Shown piece by piece: positions 10,592 through 16,372 of a stretch of DNA of 64,000 nucleotides. Numbering within the stretch: position 1 is the stretch's first letter; every line of letters begins with the position of its first letter. The DNA comes from Cytophagales bacterium (lineage in GTDB: Bacteria; Bacteroidota; Bacteroidia; Cytophagales; Cyclobacteriaceae): positions 310,001 to 374,000 of the forward strand of contig JAFLBQ010000004.1 in NCBI GenBank assembly GCA_017303805.1. Direction: 5' to 3'. The notes below the pieces were generated by a model. The model was not told where the DNA came from, made no database searches, and was given only the letters and a program-made list of their open reading frames with translations. The translations under genes and the position numbers were made by a program.

Positions 10592-11695
10592 TCACACCCG
10601 CTCGGCTACCTGGTTCATCACTTTGGTTTGCACCTGTATGGACTCGTGGTGAATCAACTTGAGCAAATCGTTAGTAAACTCTTCGTTTAACCCCATGGCT
10701 TTGCACAAGGCAATGCGGGTTTGCACAATTTCTTCCCACCGGTTAACCTGAAGAATGGTAACGTTGTTTTCTTTCTTATACTGCCCGATCTTCTCCGAAA
10801 TTTTCATGCGCTGCGATAAGCGTTGCATAATCTCATCGTCTAACTGGTCAATCTGCTCGCGTAAAATGCTCAAGGTGTCTTTAAAGGTTTTACTTTCCAC
10901 CGAGGCCGTGCGCACTACCAACTCGCTTATAATTTTGCCCAACACAGCCGGAGTAACTTGTTGTTTCGCATCGCTCCACGCAGCATCGGGGTTAATATGA
11001 CTTTCAATCATTAACCCGGCCATATCCAAATCAAGTGCCTTTTGCGAAATGAATGCAATCAGATCGCGATTACCGGCAATGTGGCTGGGGTCGCAAATCA
11101 TGTCCAACTCGGGTACGCGGGTTTTTAACTCGATGGCAAGATCCCACATGGGTGCATTGCGAAAGGGCCCTTTTTCGAAAGAAGAAAACCCGCGGTGAAT
11201 GGCTGCTAACTTGGTTATGCCGGCTTTGTTCAAACGCTCCAGCGCACCCAACCATAACTCCACATCGGGGTTAATCGGGTTCTTTACCAACACCGGAATG
11301 TCCACTCCCTTCAATGCATCGGCTACTTCCTGAACAGAGAACGGATTTACGGTGGTGCGTGCACCTACCCATAAAAAGTTAACGCCCGCTTTTAATGCGG
11401 CCTCCACGTGGGCTGCGTTGGCTACCTCGGTGGTTACCGGAAGCCCGGTTTCTTTACCTGCCTGCACCAGCCATTTTAAACCTACATCGCCAGCGCCTTC
11501 GTATTGGCCAGGCCGCGTGCGTGGTTTCCAAATGCCGGCACGCAAGGCATGCACTTTGCCGGTGGCCGCCACTTGCTTAGCGGTAGCAATTGTTTGCTCT
11601 TCGGTTTCGGCACTGCACGGCCCGCTAATAATTACCGGCCGGCTGGTCTTCATCCACGAGGATATGGGTTCGAGTTGTAGTCCTTTCTTTGTCAT
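10592..11695 (-). CDS. Bifunctional DAHP synthase-chorismate mutase
   Basis: A 367-residue fusion. Residues 1-260 are a type I-beta 3-deoxy-7-phosphoheptulonate synthase (PVIISGPCSAETEEQ, AGIWKPRTRPG, AIHRGFS, DPSHIAGNRD), which condenses PEP with erythrose-4-phosphate. Residues 270-367 are an AroQ-type chorismate mutase helix bundle (LREQIDQLDDEIMQRLSQRM, ISEKIGQYKKENN), which makes prephenate. The protein therefore catalyses the entry step and the branch step toward Phe and Tyr. It is the last gene of the pheA operon, 50 bases after tyrA. Confidence 0.95.
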   Translation of the reverse strand: MTKKGLQLEPISSWMKTSRPVIISGPCSAETEEQTIATAKQVAATGKVHALRAGIWKPRTRPGQYEGAGDVGLKWLVQAGKETGLPVTTEVANAAHVEAALKAGVNFLWVGARTTVNPFSVQEVADALKGVDIPVLVKNPINPDVELWLGALERLNKAGITKLAAIHRGFSSFEKGPFRNAPMWDLAIELKTRVPELDMICDPSHIAGNRDLIAFISQKALDLDMAGLMIESHINPDAAWSDAKQQVTPAVLGKIISELVVRTASVESKTFKDTLSILREQIDQLDDEIMQRLSQRMKISEKIGQYKKENNVTILQVNRWEEIVQTRIALCKAMGLNEEFTNDLLKLIHHESIQVQTKVMNQVAERV

Positions 11696-11745: not shown

Positions 11746-12615
11746 TTAAGAAGTCTTTTGTTTGTCGGTGTGCTGATCCAATACTCTGCGGATTTCATTT
11801 GCTTTACTCATGATGCGGTGGAGTTCTTTTGTGTCGCGCTTCATTAAATGATAGTGGAACTTTTGCAGGTGCATGATGTATTCCAGCAACGCCTGGCTCA
11901 GGTATTCTACATTTTGCTCAAAGATGGGAGTCCACATATCGGGTGAGCTTTTTGCCAACCGCACAGTAGAAGCAAAACCGCTGCCGGCCAAATCGAAAAT
12001 ATTCTTTTCATCCTTCTCAATATCCAACACGGTTTGCCCTAATAAGAATGAGCTTACGTGCGAGAGGTGCGACACATAAGCCACATGCCGGTCATGTTCA
12101 TCCGCCTCCATGAAAATTGTTTTCATCTCCAGTGCATCGAATACTTTCATAGCGGTATTCAACGCTTCTACCGAAGATTTGCCCGCCTCGCAAATAATGT
12201 TAGTCTTGCCTTTAAACAAGCCATCGAACGCAGCAGTCGGACCGGAGTTTTCGGTACCGGCAATGGGGTGCGAAGCCACAAACTGACTTCGCTTGGGATG
12301 GGTGGCTACCGATTTGCAAATCGAGGTTTTAGTCGATCCGGCATCGATCACCACCGCGTCTTTCTTTACAATATCCAATACTGCGGGCAGAAAAGCATTC
12401 AACGCATTCACCGGTATTGAAAGTATAATCAGATCTGCTGTCGAAAGTGCTTTGTCTTCGGTAAGAATTTTATCTACCAACCCAAGTTCCACCGCCTTCA
12501 ACCCATTGGCCGCGCTCGCATCTACCCCCACCAGCTCGGTGGCCACGCCTGCTCTACGCAACCCAAGGGCAACGGAACCTCCAATCAAGCCTAAGCCTAC
12601 AATAGTTGTTTTCAT
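11746..12615 (-). CDS. tyrA: Prephenate dehydrogenase
   Basis: A 289-residue NAD(P)-dependent enzyme that converts prephenate to 4-hydroxyphenylpyruvate for tyrosine. The N-terminal Rossmann motif is VGLGLIGGSVALGLRR, followed by IDAGSTKT and the substrate-site segment SHPIAGTENSGP, then an all-helical C-terminal domain (HVAYVSHLSH). No ACT domain is present. It overlaps the upstream aminotransferase by 4 bases, consistent with coupled translation. Confidence 0.94.
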   Translation of the reverse strand: MKTTIVGLGLIGGSVALGLRRAGVATELVGVDASAANGLKAVELGLVDKILTEDKALSTADLIILSIPVNALNAFLPAVLDIVKKDAVVIDAGSTKTSICKSVATHPKRSQFVASHPIAGTENSGPTAAFDGLFKGKTNIICEAGKSSVEALNTAMKVFDALEMKTIFMEADEHDRHVAYVSHLSHVSSFLLGQTVLDIEKDEKNIFDLAGSGFASTVRLAKSSPDMWTPIFEQNVEYLSQALLEYIMHLQKFHYHLMKRDTKELHRIMSKANEIRRVLDQHTDKQKTS

Positions 12616-13817
12616 TTTTTTAGACTTGAGACATTAGATTTTTTGTTCATAAACTGCTGAATTCGAATTAGCGCCTCGCTTAGTTTTTCTTCTGTCGCGC
12701 AAAGCGAAATGCGAATGTACCGCGCACCGCCCGCTCCAAAAATAAAACCCGGAGTTATGAACACATGGGTAGCGTACAACACCTCATCAATCCACTTTTC
12801 TACATCGGGCACGTATGCTGGCGCTTTGGCCCACACAAACAATCCCGATTGATTTTCGGAAAAGGAACACCCCAGTGCATTTAAAATTTTGTGCGCGGCT
12901 GTTCTTCGTTTTTTATAAACGCTGTTCAACTCGGTAAACCATGCTGCGCCACTCTTCAGTGCTTCGGCTGCAGCCAGTTGTAGTCCAAGAAACATCCCGC
13001 TATCCATATTACTCTTTACCCGAAGCACGGCATCAACCAATTCCTTATTGCCGGCTACCCACCCAATGCGCCACCCCGCCATGTTGTGCGATTTACTCAG
13101 CGAGTTAAGTTCCAGCGCTACCGCTTCTGCTCCTTCCACAGCAAGAATGCTTTGCGGATTGTCGTTGAGGATTAGGGAATATGGATTATCGTTTACGATT
13201 AAAAAATTATTTTGGCGGGCAAGGTTAACCAGCGCGCTTAACTCTTCGCGCGAAGCAACGCGGCCGGTGGGCATGTGTGGAAAGTTAACCCACATAATTT
13301 TCACTTTCGATAAATCGGATTGCTGCAAGGCGGCCACATCAATACCCCAGTCCAGCGATTCCTGAAGTGGATACGTACGAACTTTTGCACCCACCAACTT
13401 TGCCACCGATGAATAGGTAGGGTAACCCGGATCGGGAATCAGCACTTCTTCGCCCTCGTTTACAAAAGCCATGGCGATGTGCATGATCCCCTCCTTCGAA
13501 CCCATGAGCGGAAGGATTTCTGTTTCGGGGTTCAGGTTAACACCGTAGGTAGTTTTGTAAAACTGCTGTATCGCCTGCCGCACTGCCGGCACGCCTTTAT
13601 AATTCTGGTAACCGTGGCTGGTTGCTTTTTGAGCCGTTGCATGCAGCGCTTCAACCGCAGCGGGGGCCGGAGCCAGGTCGGGACTTCCGATGCCCAGATT
13701 AATTACCGGATGGGCTGGCGAATCCAATCCACGTACTTCAGCTAACTTTTTACTGAAGTAGTATTCTTCCACGTTGGCAATCCGGTTTGCAGTCTTTATC
13801 ATATTACTTGTATTCAA
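12612..13817 (-). CDS. PLP-dependent aminotransferase, class I/II (probably aromatic)
   Basis: A 401-residue fold-type I aminotransferase. The PLP lysine sits in LNSLSKSHNMAGWRIGW (about residue 242). The segments VNFPHMPTGRVAS and NDNPYSLILND hold the expected Asn/Asp/Tyr cofactor contacts. It lies between pheA and tyrA, so it probably transaminates phenylpyruvate and 4-hydroxyphenylpyruvate to Phe and Tyr; that specificity is inferred from the operon. Its start overlaps pheA by 14 bases and its end overlaps tyrA by 4. Confidence 0.9.
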   Translation of the reverse strand: MNTSNMIKTANRIANVEEYYFSKKLAEVRGLDSPAHPVINLGIGSPDLAPAPAAVEALHATAQKATSHGYQNYKGVPAVRQAIQQFYKTTYGVNLNPETEILPLMGSKEGIMHIAMAFVNEGEEVLIPDPGYPTYSSVAKLVGAKVRTYPLQESLDWGIDVAALQQSDLSKVKIMWVNFPHMPTGRVASREELSALVNLARQNNFLIVNDNPYSLILNDNPQSILAVEGAEAVALELNSLSKSHNMAGWRIGWVAGNKELVDAVLRVKSNMDSGMFLGLQLAAAEALKSGAAWFTELNSVYKKRRTAAHKILNALGCSFSENQSGLFVWAKAPAYVPDVEKWIDEVLYATHVFITPGFIFGAGGARYIRISLCATEEKLSEALIRIQQFMNKKSNVSSLKK

Positions 13818-14646
13818 TCTTTGCTTTTTTGTATTCGCCCAGTATGTTCAGATTTTTTACCTGCCGTAGCACCTGGCCGATAGCCGCATCGTAACTCTTG
13901 CGCTTTTTCCATTCCACATCAATGTGAATCGAATACTCGCTGGGTTTTCCGATAATGGGTATCGACTGAATTTTAGACAGGTTAATGCTGTTGTTCTTAA
14001 AAGTCATCAGCGCTTCGGCAAGGCTGCCTACTTCGTTGGCCACTTCAAAGCACAACGAAGCCTTGTTACTATCGGCAGCCGTTTTAATCTTGCGCGTAAG
14101 AATTAAAAAGCGCGTAAAATTTTTTTTGTGGGTTTCTATGCGCTTCTCTAAAATATTCAGTCCGAATTTTTTAGCCGCATACTCGTTGGCAATGGCCGCT
14201 GTGGTTTTAAGTTTTTGGTCTTTAACCTTGCGGGCCGATAGCGCAGTATCTTCACTTTCCAGAATCTGTACTCCGTTCAACTTATATAAATAGTCGCTGC
14301 ACTGGCGTATGGCCATGGGGTGCGATTCGATACTTTTAATATCCTGCAGTGTTACTCCCGGCAAGGCCAGCAGGTGCATGTGTATGGGCAGGTACACTTC
14401 ACCAATAATTGAAAAATGATACTCCTGCAATAAAAAGTAGTTGGGTAAAATGCTTCCCGCGATGGAGTTCTCGATGGCCATAACCGCATAATCCGATTCT
14501 CCTTTCTTTAACGATTCGCACAGGGTATGAAAGCTCAAACACTCTACGGTTTGTATGGACTGCTGGAAGTACGTTATAGCCGCCACTTCGTGAAAGCTGG
14601 TGGCAATGCCTTGAATGGCGATCCGGAGTTTTTTCTTTTTAGTCAT
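13804..14646 (-). CDS. pheA: Prephenate dehydratase with ACT domain
   Basis: A 280-residue monofunctional prephenate dehydratase that makes phenylpyruvate. Residues 1-180 form the catalytic domain (AIENSIAGSI, SHPMAIRQC, and the catalytic TRF of KNFTRFLIL). Residues 195-275 form the ACT regulatory domain (GSLAEALMTFKNNSINLSKI). The usual ESRP phenylalanine-binding motif reads QSIP here, which may be lineage-typical. It is the first structural gene of the aromatic operon and starts 9 bases after a strong leader terminator, so transcription is expected to be controlled by attenuation. Confidence 0.94.
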   Translation of the reverse strand: MTKKKKLRIAIQGIATSFHEVAAITYFQQSIQTVECLSFHTLCESLKKGESDYAVMAIENSIAGSILPNYFLLQEYHFSIIGEVYLPIHMHLLALPGVTLQDIKSIESHPMAIRQCSDYLYKLNGVQILESEDTALSARKVKDQKLKTTAAIANEYAAKKFGLNILEKRIETHKKNFTRFLILTRKIKTAADSNKASLCFEVANEVGSLAEALMTFKNNSINLSKIQSIPIIGKPSEYSIHIDVEWKKRKSYDAAIGQVLRQVKNLNILGEYKKAKIEYK

Positions 14647-14655
14647 AAGTCTTTC

Positions 14656-14692
14656 AAAAAAAGAAAGTCCCTCGGTTGGGAGGGACTTTCTT
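14656..14692 (-). terminator. Leader terminator (attenuator) before pheA
   Basis: A perfect 13-bp stem (AAGAAAGTCCCTC with its complement, 14661-14673 and 14680-14692) with a 6-base loop CCAACC, followed on the minus strand by a run of T. It lies inside the pheA leader, between the leader peptide and the pheA start, where an operon terminator makes no sense unless it is regulated. Confidence 0.9.
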
Positions 14693-14714
14693 GAGTTTCT
14701 TTGGTTTTATTTTC

Positions 14715-14792
14715 TTAACAAACCGATTCTCCTTCAAGCCCCACGCGGGTCTGATAAAAAAAGTAAAAGAAGTAAAATCGGTTGCGGTTCAT
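14715..14792 (-). CDS. Phe/Tyr-rich leader peptide of the aromatic operon
   Basis: A 25-codon ORF beginning MNRNR and ending GLEGESVC before TAA. Codons 6-13 are FYFFYFFY, five Phe and three Tyr in a row. This is the signature of a transcription-attenuation leader sensing charged tRNA-Phe and tRNA-Tyr. It ends 22 bases before the terminator stem that precedes pheA. The element AACCGATT in codons 4-6 (14776-14783) can pair with AATCGGTT in codons 22-24 (14721-14728). The latter can instead pair with AACCGA in the terminator loop and descending arm (14672-14677). Stalling at the Phe/Tyr codons would cover the first element and favour the second pairing. Translation has not been shown. Confidence 0.85.
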   Translation of the reverse strand: MNRNRFYFFYFFYQTRVGLEGESVC

Positions 14793-14852
14793 CTCGTGTT
14801 ATAAATCGGGTTGTAAGAAATAGGAAAAAATCTGCATCTGCAAAGACCGATA

Positions 14853-14880
14853 AAAAAATATTACTAAAAACTCTTGGCAA
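14853..14880 (-). promoter_or_regulatory. Candidate promoter of the pheA leader and operon
   Basis: On the minus strand a TTG (14878-14880) is followed after 17 bases by TATTTTTT (14853-14860), one mismatch from the Bacteroidota TAnnTTTG element. It would start a leader of about 200 bases containing the Phe/Tyr peptide. The match is only moderate. Confidence 0.35.
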
Positions 14881-14958
14881 CTAACCCTTGTTAGCCTTAT
14901 TCGATCCGCGATATAGCCGCTTATGTGTATCTTTACACGCTACCCCTGCTATCTCACT

Positions 14959-15396
14959 ATGAAAAATCTTTCCCTATTCCTTTTACTAATTCTTTTTCTC
15001 ACCGCTTGCGAAAAGGGTCAACAAGCAACTTCTGAAGCGGAAGAAACTGACAACCCCAACCAGGTATTGTACGACCAGGTGATGGATGTGCACGATGAGG
15101 TAATGCCTAAAATGGACGAGATTATGAAGCTGAAGCGGCAATTGAAAGAACAAATTGCCAACACCCCCGATATGGTAGTAGAACGCAAGCAGCAGCTCGA
15201 GAAAATTATCAGCAACCTCGACTCGGCCAGCACGGCCATGATGAACTGGATGCACAAGTTTAACCCCCTACCCGATACAGCCGATCAGGAAAAAGCCCGC
15301 GCGTACCTGGAAGTTGAAATGGAACGCATTCGAAGTGTAAAAAATCTGATGCTGGAAAGCATTGATAAAGCAAAGTCAGAATCTGGCAACCCGTAA
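14959..15396 (+). CDS. Small lipoprotein with a predicted coiled coil
   Basis: About 145 residues from the ATG at 14959, which begins the signal MKNLSLFLLLILFLTAC with lipobox LTAC. An upstream in-frame ATG (14923) would place 12 extra residues before the signal and is unlikely. After an acidic linker, residues 30-145 are highly helical and charged (DEVMPKMDEIMKLKRQLKEQ, ARAYLEVEMERI), suggesting a coiled-coil or helical bundle on the periplasmic face. I do not recognise a named function. The next gene follows after 15 bases. Confidence 0.85.
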   Translation: MKNLSLFLLLILFLTACEKGQQATSEAEETDNPNQVLYDQVMDVHDEVMPKMDEIMKLKRQLKEQIANTPDMVVERKQQLEKIISNLDSASTAMMNWMHKFNPLPDTADQEKARAYLEVEMERIRSVKNLMLESIDKAKSESGNP

Positions 15397-15411: not shown

Positions 15412-15825
15412 ATGGATAAACAAAGTCTGCTTGCGGAGCTAAACCAGCGCACCTATGTCATGCTCCAAGCTTCGGCAGTAGCCGGTGTGGGTGTGTTTGC
15501 AACTACCCCAATACCGAAAGGCTGCCGCGAGATGTTTAGCCCGCCCGACCCGAACGAGAAATGGATAACCTTATCGGCTCAGGAAGTGGAAGGTCTGCCT
15601 GCCCATGCCCGCTTTATAGTTGAGAACTATTGCCTGTACGATGACAACCTGAACTACTTTGTACCCGCAGCAGGCTTTAAGAAAATGGATTTATCCTTAT
15701 TCATTAATCACAGCGACCAGCCTAATATCCGATCGATAAACGATGGCGCCTATTTTGAAGCGCTGCGGGATATAAATACGGGCGAAGAATTATTTCTTGA
15801 TTACGGAGAGATCGTACCCGAGTAA
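15412..15825 (+). CDS. SET-domain protein (short)
   Basis: A 137-residue stand-alone SET domain. The expected elements appear in order: the cofactor loop GVGVFATTPIPKG (about residues 27-38), FINHSDQPNI with the NHS knot motif (about 96-105), and GEELFLDYGE at the C-terminus (about 125-134). SET proteins transfer methyl groups from SAM to lysine; bacterial targets are mostly unknown. It lies 15 bases after the lipoprotein gene and converges on a second SET gene 40 bases away. Confidence 0.88.
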   Translation: MDKQSLLAELNQRTYVMLQASAVAGVGVFATTPIPKGCREMFSPPDPNEKWITLSAQEVEGLPAHARFIVENYCLYDDNLNYFVPAAGFKKMDLSLFINHSDQPNIRSINDGAYFEALRDINTGEELFLDYGEIVPE

Positions 15826-15865: not shown

Positions 15866-16372
15866 CTACTTCTTTTTACTGGTTCGCTTGGTAGCCTTGT
15901 GGTGCGGCAACTCTATCTTCTTGCTGGCCTTCTTCCCAGCCTTTTCTTTATTGCGTTGTTCTAAGCGAATGTTGTAGCGGATGGCTTGCCAATATTCGCC
16001 TCCGTATCCAACCAAAATCTCGGCCCCGGCAGGTATGTCGCGGATTGCTTCAATGTAACACCGCTTCTTTTCCGTTACATAGTCCGCATTGTTCTTCACA
16101 CCTTCTACGCGCACAATGCCACGCGCATCGTTGGCGTAGTGGGCAATTCCCTTCTTGGTTTTCCAGGCATCAATACAATATTTATTGTTGAAGAAGAACA
16201 CATATCCGTTGCGGTCGTCTGCCATTTTCTCCACTTCTTTCCAGGTAACAACCTCGCCTTTGTATTCTACTATGCGGGTACCCTTGGGAATAAACACTTT
16301 TGTAAAAAGTCCTTTGCCAGCTCCCGGCAAGGTGGACTTTTTAATCACCATTTTCTTTTCTAATAATGCCAT
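15866..16372 (-). CDS. SET-domain protein with a basic C-terminal tail
   Basis: A 168-residue SET protein. Visible elements are LPGAGKGLFTKVFIPKGTRI (about residues 15-34), IAHYANDARG in place of the NHS motif, and AGAEILVGYGGEYW in place of the ELxxDY segment. The last 35 residues are lysine/arginine-rich, which suggests nucleic-acid binding. A methyltransferase role is a family inference, and the variant knot motif leaves activity open. It is convergent with the SET gene at 15412-15825. Confidence 0.87.
   Translation of the reverse strand: MALLEKKMVIKKSTLPGAGKGLFTKVFIPKGTRIVEYKGEVVTWKEVEKMADDRNGYVFFFNNKYCIDAWKTKKGIAHYANDARGIVRVEGVKNNADYVTEKKRCYIEAIRDIPAGAEILVGYGGEYWQAIRYNIRLEQRNKEKAGKKASKKIELPHHKATKRTSKKK

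Follow-up and report, generated by a model that had tools for sequence, protein, structure and literature searches.

Organisation of the pheA locus

Examination of the window (the whole stretch of 64,000 nucleotides analysed) revealed four genes on the minus strand, preceded by a short open reading frame dense in Phe and Tyr codons. Pfam matches were obtained for all four genes of the operon named in the original prediction, and the genes and their leader are arranged as follows.

14754..14777, minus strand: sensor codons TTT TAC TTC TTT TAC TTT TTT TAT (FYFFYFFY), codons 6-13 of the leader ORF
14715..14792, minus strand: leader ORF, MNRNRFYFFYFFYQTRVGLEGESVC and stop
13804..14646, minus strand: pheA, prephenate dehydratase (Pfam PF00800, E 6.2e-56)
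12612..13817, minus strand: class I/II aminotransferase (Pfam PF00155); the listed start is TTG and the true start may be internal
11746..12615, minus strand: tyrA, prephenate dehydrogenase (Pfam PF02153 and PF20463)
10592..11695, minus strand: DAHP synthase fused to chorismate mutase (Pfam PF00793 and PF01817)

Direct reading of the minus strand from 14792 to 14715 gives 25 codons plus a stop, and both this ORF and the FYFFYFFY run at codons 6-13 lie where the original prediction had placed them. The T-run of the terminator ends at 14656 and pheA starts at 14646, which bears out the nine bases claimed between them. The leader stop codon is 68 nt from pheA in the window, a distance that is highly variable in the relatives. 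The nearest gene-sized ORF upstream (14923-15396, plus strand) is divergent to the pheA leader, and a terminator is thus unneeded for ending an upstream transcript. Beyond it lie two neighbouring small ORFs, at 15412-15825 (plus strand) and 15866-16372 (minus strand), whose proteins carry GAGKGLF and NHSDQPN; judged by eye, both may be SET-domain-like.

Conservation of the leader in near relatives

The near set consists of the best 80 of 169 PheA relatives confirmed in a scan of the genome collection, with 63-93% identity, from Cyclobacteriaceae, Flammeovirgaceae, Cytophagales and others. A leader was defined as a short ORF with at least six F/Y in 10 residues, no more than 400 nt upstream of pheA. 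Such an ORF is present in 80/80 of these best-matching relatives, against 37/3378 control windows from the same loci and 1/400 shuffled upstream regions. A first scan located a terminator in 79/80 upstream regions, the exception (L063) being a region cut short, and a second scan placed one 3' of the leader in 81/81, the window included. The combination of Phe/Tyr-rich ORF and terminator that the original prediction proposed to look for in related pheA leaders is therefore present. Cultured species with this leader include Chryseolinea serpens (L031) and Ohtaekwangia koreensis (L040). These counts, with the Pfam assignments, uphold its general reading of a Phe/Tyr leader-peptide attenuator before an aromatic operon in a Bacteroidota-type genome.

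Gene order is conserved as well. The aminotransferase gene follows pheA in 80/80 relatives, and the full four-gene order was found in 72/80 loci within the stretch available (less than 4200 nt downstream in 13 loci), the last gene being absent in five and the last two in three.

Some individual loci depart from the common arrangement. In L008 the Phe/Tyr run upstream of pheA is one base shorter, with a frameshift and loss of the usual stop, and the leader ORF (46 codons) reads through the terminator up to the pheA start; this is either a natural variant or an assembly error. In L012, L036, L051, L058, L071 and L075 the gap between terminator and pheA extends to about 60-180 nt with the leader unit unchanged, and in some of these the extra sequence resembles, by eye, C/G-rich inverted repeats.

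RNA segments and the antiterminator

The leader transcript can be divided into the following segments. Conservation was measured in an alignment of 81 leaders (79 distinct), hereafter A1.

14776..14783, minus strand: segment A, AACCGATT, immediately before and overlapping the first sensor codon; pairs with segment B
14747..14750, minus strand: segment 1, ACCC, directly 3' of the sensor codons; can form a short hairpin with segment 2
14736..14742, minus strand: segment 2, GGGGCUU, predicted antiterminator arm; 2:3 helix paired in 92.5% of A1 cells
14729..14731, minus strand: GAG, forming in the predicted fold a second small antiterminator helix with CTC at 14695-14693
14721..14728, minus strand: segment B, AATCGGTT, partner of segment A
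14682..14688, minus strand: segment 3, AAGUCCC, 5' arm of the terminator and probable target of segment 2 (covariation, duplex test)
14661..14692, minus strand: intrinsic terminator hairpin (3:4), 13 pairs (6 G-C), loop of 6, T-run to 14656

The original prediction had described a GC-rich terminator of 13 bp. The 13 pairs are there; "GC-rich" was generous, given that 6/13 are G-C. In A1 the terminator is paired in 99.6% of cells, and 6/10 of its pairs are changed on both sides.

Segment 2 nearly repeats the 3' arm of the terminator, GGGACUU, and is complementary to the 5' arm. It corresponds to a conserved A1 element, CGGGACUU, carried by the leader ORF. In the window it begins 11 nt past the last Tyr codon; measured by script from the last F/Y/W codon, the distance is 11 nt in 55/81 leaders and 9-14 nt in 75/81. 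The GAG:CUC helix is paired in 86.0% of A1 cells, with both-side changes at all three pairs. Taken together, the two antiterminator helices are paired in 90.8% of cells; shifting the partner by 1-3 columns lowers this to 57.1% or less.

Covariation was assessed against 500 shuffles of A1. Both-side changes affect 20 antiterminator cells, where shuffles give 6.1 (0/500 as high). This measure, the percentage paired and the covariation score exceed every shuffle, and they do so for A:B with 1:2 as well. For the antiterminator, the other two of five measures are not clearly above shuffles, namely the number of pairs with both-side changes, which is no better (5 vs 4.2; 196/500 as high), and the number of pair types (16 vs 13.5; 44/500 as high). 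Compensatory variants can be seen in individual leaders, such as GGGGCU with AGCCCC in L014, L021, L023 and L025, and GGGGGAUU with AAUCCCCC in L068. Judged by these sequences, the predicted antiterminator GGGGCUU:AAGUCCC is conserved, would exclude the terminator and covaries with it.

The segment 1 helix is paired in 82.0% of A1 cells, its outermost pair failing in 47/79, and by eye it is not retained in several leaders of the wider class. A search of the window's own genome with the four-segment pattern gave one occurrence, at pheA, and hence no second gene under a pheA-type element.

The original prediction had drawn a switch from three elements, AACCGATT (14783-14776), AATCGGTT (14728-14721) and AACCGA (14677-14672), all of which occupy the positions claimed. 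In that scheme AATCGGTT pairs either with AACCGATT or with AACCGA in the terminator. The first helix, called 1:2 there and A:B here, held up: although clades differ in register, 73.6% of A1 cells are paired. Own A:B duplexes average -11.0 kcal/mol against -8.5 for swapped partners (means that include loci with segment A misplaced: L002, L051, L055, L058-L060, L067 and L069), and a foreign partner is better in 26% on average. For A:B plus 1:2, pairs changed on both sides fall below shuffles (6 vs 6.9; 489/500 as high). Another clade keeps A:B with other sequence, L026 pairing AACAACACA with UGUGUUGUU. The second arm lies past the stop codon in some leaders, with an AATCG core there (L014, L017 and L066, for example).

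The second helix of that scheme was not supported, and GGGGCUU:AAGUCCC had no place in it. In the window AATCGGTT:AACCGA offers six uninterrupted Watson-Crick pairs, whereas the longest strict Watson-Crick stretch of GGGGCUU:AAGUCCC is three, because of a G-U pair. Taken alone, however, AATCGGTT:AACCGA is the weaker helix (-6.4 vs -9.0 kcal/mol), and its probability is 0.0 in every folding state tried, including folds with AACCGA complete. Six Watson-Crick pairs between AATCGGTT and the terminator loop region are found in 1/81 leaders, the window itself, and no more than three in 56/81. The exact switch as first drawn is thus very improbable.

Codon-level selection in the leader

In the densest eight codons of each of the 81 leaders (648 codons) we counted 327 TTY, 0 TTR, 266 TAY and 22 TGG; selection by ORF and density leaves no room for stops and enriches F/Y/W, yet TTR would have been admitted. 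Both F and Y occur in 81/81 near leaders, with one W in 23/81, and in a wider set described below F and Y occur in 32/32 leaders, with one W in 13 (two of the 32 being apparent duplicates of the 81). The mixture of Phe and Tyr codons noted in the original prediction is consequently general. From these counts the Phe/Tyr run appears to be selected as codons, and the pheA leader appears to be a mixed aromatic sensor, for Phe and Tyr and in some leaders Trp.

The same counts bear on a reading in which the ORF is incidental, the U-rich stretch works as an RNA element or binds a protein, and the terminator is controlled by an RNA-binding protein or a small molecule. The stretch is indeed U-rich, and both 2:3 and A:B are features of the RNA. 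Against this, third positions are T or C (TTR 0 vs TTY 327), F, Y and W codons exchange in frame, the codons correspond to the products of the operon, and the region contains no Rfam family at gathering score. This reading is even less likely than the switch as first drawn.

The end of the peptide could suggest a nascent-peptide arrest of the TnaC kind, with the peptide itself stalling the ribosome, since the C-terminus GLERESVC looks conserved in the window's clade. Segment 2, however, is read in three frames among the leaders (63, 11 and 7 of 81), for example as GGA CTT (Gly-Leu), CGG GAC TTG (Arg-Asp-Leu) or GGG ACT (Gly-Thr), and the C-terminus differs with this frame or with an earlier stop (GL, RDLR, GTD and others). 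Because segment 2 is kept in different frames, the conserved tail is best read as RNA structure; moreover, F and Y interchange inside the run. We consider arrest by the peptide less likely again. That there is only an ordinary terminator, or a leader boosting translation by reinitiation with no amino acid sensing, is barely credible: leader ORFs near a gene may raise translation according to passages of PMC4833913, but those passages place the Bacteroidetes peak at 11-14 bp against 68 nt here and a variable distance in relatives, the upstream neighbour is divergent, and the F/Y-rich leader is present in 80/80.

Proposed mechanism and folding

We put at roughly 0.9 the probability that the pheA operon is under ribosome-mediated attenuation of transcription, with a mixed sensor for aromatic amino acids. 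The sequences themselves show the leader ORF and its conservation at codon level, the terminator, the complementary and covarying arms of 2:3, A:B, the near-fixed spacing and the gene order; we infer the start of transcription, leader translation, ribosome stalling, polymerase read-through and a response to Phe and Tyr.

RNA polymerase would transcribe the short leader ORF dense in Phe and Tyr codons, and when charged tRNA-Phe or tRNA-Tyr is scarce the ribosome would stall on the run. An early stall would cover segment A and a late stall segment 1, leaving segment 2 free either way. Free segment 2 could then pair with segment 3 before segment 4 is made, which would forestall the terminator and let the four aromatic genes be transcribed. 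With Phe and Tyr plentiful, the ribosome would proceed over segment 2 to the stop codon and the 13-bp terminator would form; alternatively, the ribosome would leave and A:B and 1:2 would sequester segment 2, with formation of the same terminator.

For the whole leader the predicted fold, more stable than shuffles (-40.8 kcal/mol, z -3.4), combines the terminator with A:B and a small 1:2 hairpin. Without the terminator the fold energy of the leader is no better than that of shuffles (z -0.8), and the stretch from the last sensor codon to the terminator 5' arm folds as 2:3 with an energy likewise no better than shuffles (z -1.0). Ribosomes were modelled by masking, with assumed footprint sizes. 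With segment 4 incomplete (3' ends 14678-14672), the probability of 2:3 in the window is 0.98-0.99 with the stalled ribosome masked and 0.09-0.13 without a ribosome, when A:B stands at about 0.8. Among the 81 leaders, the run-averaged probability of 2:3 exceeds 0.5 in 74 with a stalled ribosome, and 2:3 is favoured in 58 without a ribosome before segment 4 is made; the folds behind both counts stopped before AACCGA was complete, and refolding the window with AACCGA gave the same answer.

With the ribosome at the stop codon, the probability of 2:3 exceeds 0.5 in 34, 27, 5 and 0 of 81 leaders at 5' edges of 18, 21, 24 and 27 nt, the 5' edge being the assumed number of nucleotides before the A site, and the result depends on the value chosen. 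In the window the probability is 0.96 at 18 and 0.0 at 21. The complete terminator wins at equilibrium in 80/81 leaders without a ribosome, and in the window it reduces the probability of 2:3 to 0.0 even with a stalled ribosome. Because the complete terminator is favoured at equilibrium even then, read-through must be kinetic. In these models either state would hinge on timing as transcription proceeds. The fed state would rest on the shadow of the ribosome, or on the ribosome leaving and A:B then pairing; modelled folding alone does not yield termination in that state.

Distribution in the class and leaders at hisG and trpE

A wider search covered 158 genomes of the phylum and gave a PheA match in 138. 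Upstream regions of 60 were collected, 33/34 from the genus, family, order or class of the window (its own genome excluded) and 27/103 from others; the class is Bacteroidia. The leader was here defined by at least seven F/Y/W in 10 residues, the control windows given above (37/3378) belonging to the F/Y definition. By this wider definition a leader is present in 29/33 loci within the class and 3/27 outside it. L082 and L083 are apparent duplicates of genomes L065 and L059; without them the count within the class is 27/31, and they remain in the wider leader, Phe_leader and promoter-box counts. In L095, L110, L113 and L114 no F/Y/W-rich leader was found in the 700 nt upstream of pheA, and two of the leaderless class loci (4/33) belong to the window's own family by the label of the tool.

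In the wider set too, segment 2 co-varies with the terminator: CAGGAUUGU with ACAAUCCUG (L102), CGAGGCUUU with AAAGCCUCG (L090), CGAGACCU with AGGUCUCG (L100) and UGAGAACU with AGUUCUCA (L101). In 29 wider leaders (the 32 minus L082, L083 and L111, the last with no terminator found), the duplex of a leader's own segments 2 and 3 averages -15.2 kcal/mol against -9.82 (sd 0.55) for permuted partners, 0/10000 being as low. For 63 distinct arms from both sets the values are -13.8 and -11.1 kcal/mol (0/5000 as low), with the run end misplaced in L093, L096, L098, L099, L102, L105 and L109; the test on 29 leaders used a wider rule. A perfect TAnnTTTG promoter box occurs near the leader start in 25/113 leaders (L082 and L083 included), against 25/1130 shuffles, and no perfect box was found for the window leader.

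The window's own genome carries two further leader candidates. The first is followed by the terminator GAAGGCCCGCTGTTCACAGTGGGCCTTC and the second by AAAAAGGCTTGCC...GGTAAGCCTTTTTT.

G000 contig C11, about 81.5 kb, plus strand: Trp-rich leader candidate MIKVVHTAWWWHKSESDW and stop (L144), upstream of trpE
G000 contig C11, about 160.5 kb, minus strand: His-rich leader candidate MNNRQNIHGHHHHANRKSGSALF and stop (L143), upstream of hisG

At the level of the class, HisG was found in 29/60 genomes and a TrpE-type domain in 34/60. All 30 hisG loci listed were scanned, and 21 of the 30 trpE-type loci listed, weak domain matches being omitted. At least four His in eight residues occur at 18/30 hisG loci, against 3/166 control windows, and at least three Trp in eight residues at 10/21 trpE-type loci, against 1/116; the counts include the window's own genome, and some loci end at contig ends. 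The remaining 12/30 hisG and 11/21 trpE-type loci are below threshold or unable to show a leader, including eight short or fragmentary loci not separated from the rest. Because so many of these loci fall short or cannot show a leader, the term class-wide is best supported for pheA. The ilvD loci showed no clear leader.

On balance we lean towards an old, shared system of leader-peptide attenuation across a class of Bacteroidota, with Phe/Tyr (and Trp) leaders at pheA, His leaders at hisG and Trp leaders at trpE, in bacteria whose translation starts without Shine-Dalgarno sequences, the pheA leader serving as an OR-gate whose inputs are two or three aromatic amino acids. Such a gate would suit an operon in which the first common step is encoded together with both branches, and a single leader may then sense several amino acids of a branched pathway. 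The persistence of such leaders would mean that ribosomes trail RNA polymerase closely enough for control that depends on coupling; a conserved, covarying case in Bacteroidota, with sisters at his and trp genes in one genome, offers a direct handle on whether such coupling operates in the phylum. The class-wide reach, the mixed sensor codons and the His and Trp sister leaders give the system more than routine interest, and its segments are defined with enough precision to build an RNA family entry and to design reporter tests.

Comparison with known systems

Leader-peptide attenuators of trp, his and other operons are known from Proteobacteria and Actinobacteria, the classical kind best from Proteobacteria. 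The window leader shares with them codons for the product, competing helices and an intrinsic terminator; it comes from another phylum, and its segment 2 is located within the last part of the ORF or immediately downstream. In a further difference from these attenuators, no Shine-Dalgarno sequence is expected at the window leader; for flavobacteria, a passage of PMC9723704 reports the absence of such sequences. According to a passage of PMC2965389 from 2010, its authors knew of no such attenuator demonstrated in any phylum but Proteobacteria and Actinobacteria until their own Firmicutes case, ermC aside.

For Bacteroidota themselves, we found leader-peptide attenuation only hinted at in the literature. 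The section of PMC9723704 on Flavobacterium psychrophilum reports strong clues for it upstream of amino acid operons. As a separate finding it describes conserved and structured 5' elements at pheA and hisG that lack Rfam hits. These are in the same phylum and at the same genes as here; that section names neither a peptide nor an antiterminator, nor a distribution past Flavobacteriaceae. Passages of PMC7366714 mention ORFs reminiscent of leader peptides in Bacteroides thetaiotaomicron, and in PMC8305728, on his genes of this superphylum, the attenuation passage concerns enterobacteria. At shikimate genes, PMC6429828 shows candidate uORFs that contain F and Y; these, and uORFC-13-1 upstream of aroF in Acholeplasma (PMC8632094), resemble the window leader in placing Phe, or Phe and Tyr, codons in an aromatic-pathway leader ORF; the passages concerned draw no link to pheA or Bacteroidota. 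We found no published account of this pheA switch in the literature covered; subscription journals and supplements were outside its scope, and earlier descriptions may exist.

At gathering score, Rfam matches in the whole window are tRNAs only, with no T-box, riboswitch or leader family. The closest model is Phe_leader (RF01859), which likewise combines a Phe-rich leader ORF with a terminator. The alignment of the window spans the model from position 1 to 125 of 125 and scores 34.8 bits, below the gathering score of 55; the best of 20 other loci (L082, 39.3 bits) is also below it, and at least seven model pairs are marked broken in the alignment to the window. This likeness is read as one of layout and U-rich codons. 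The enterobacterial pheA leader, as in E. coli, is Phe-only and serves pheA alone, whereas the window leader mixes Phe and Tyr codons and precedes a four-gene operon for both Phe and Tyr.
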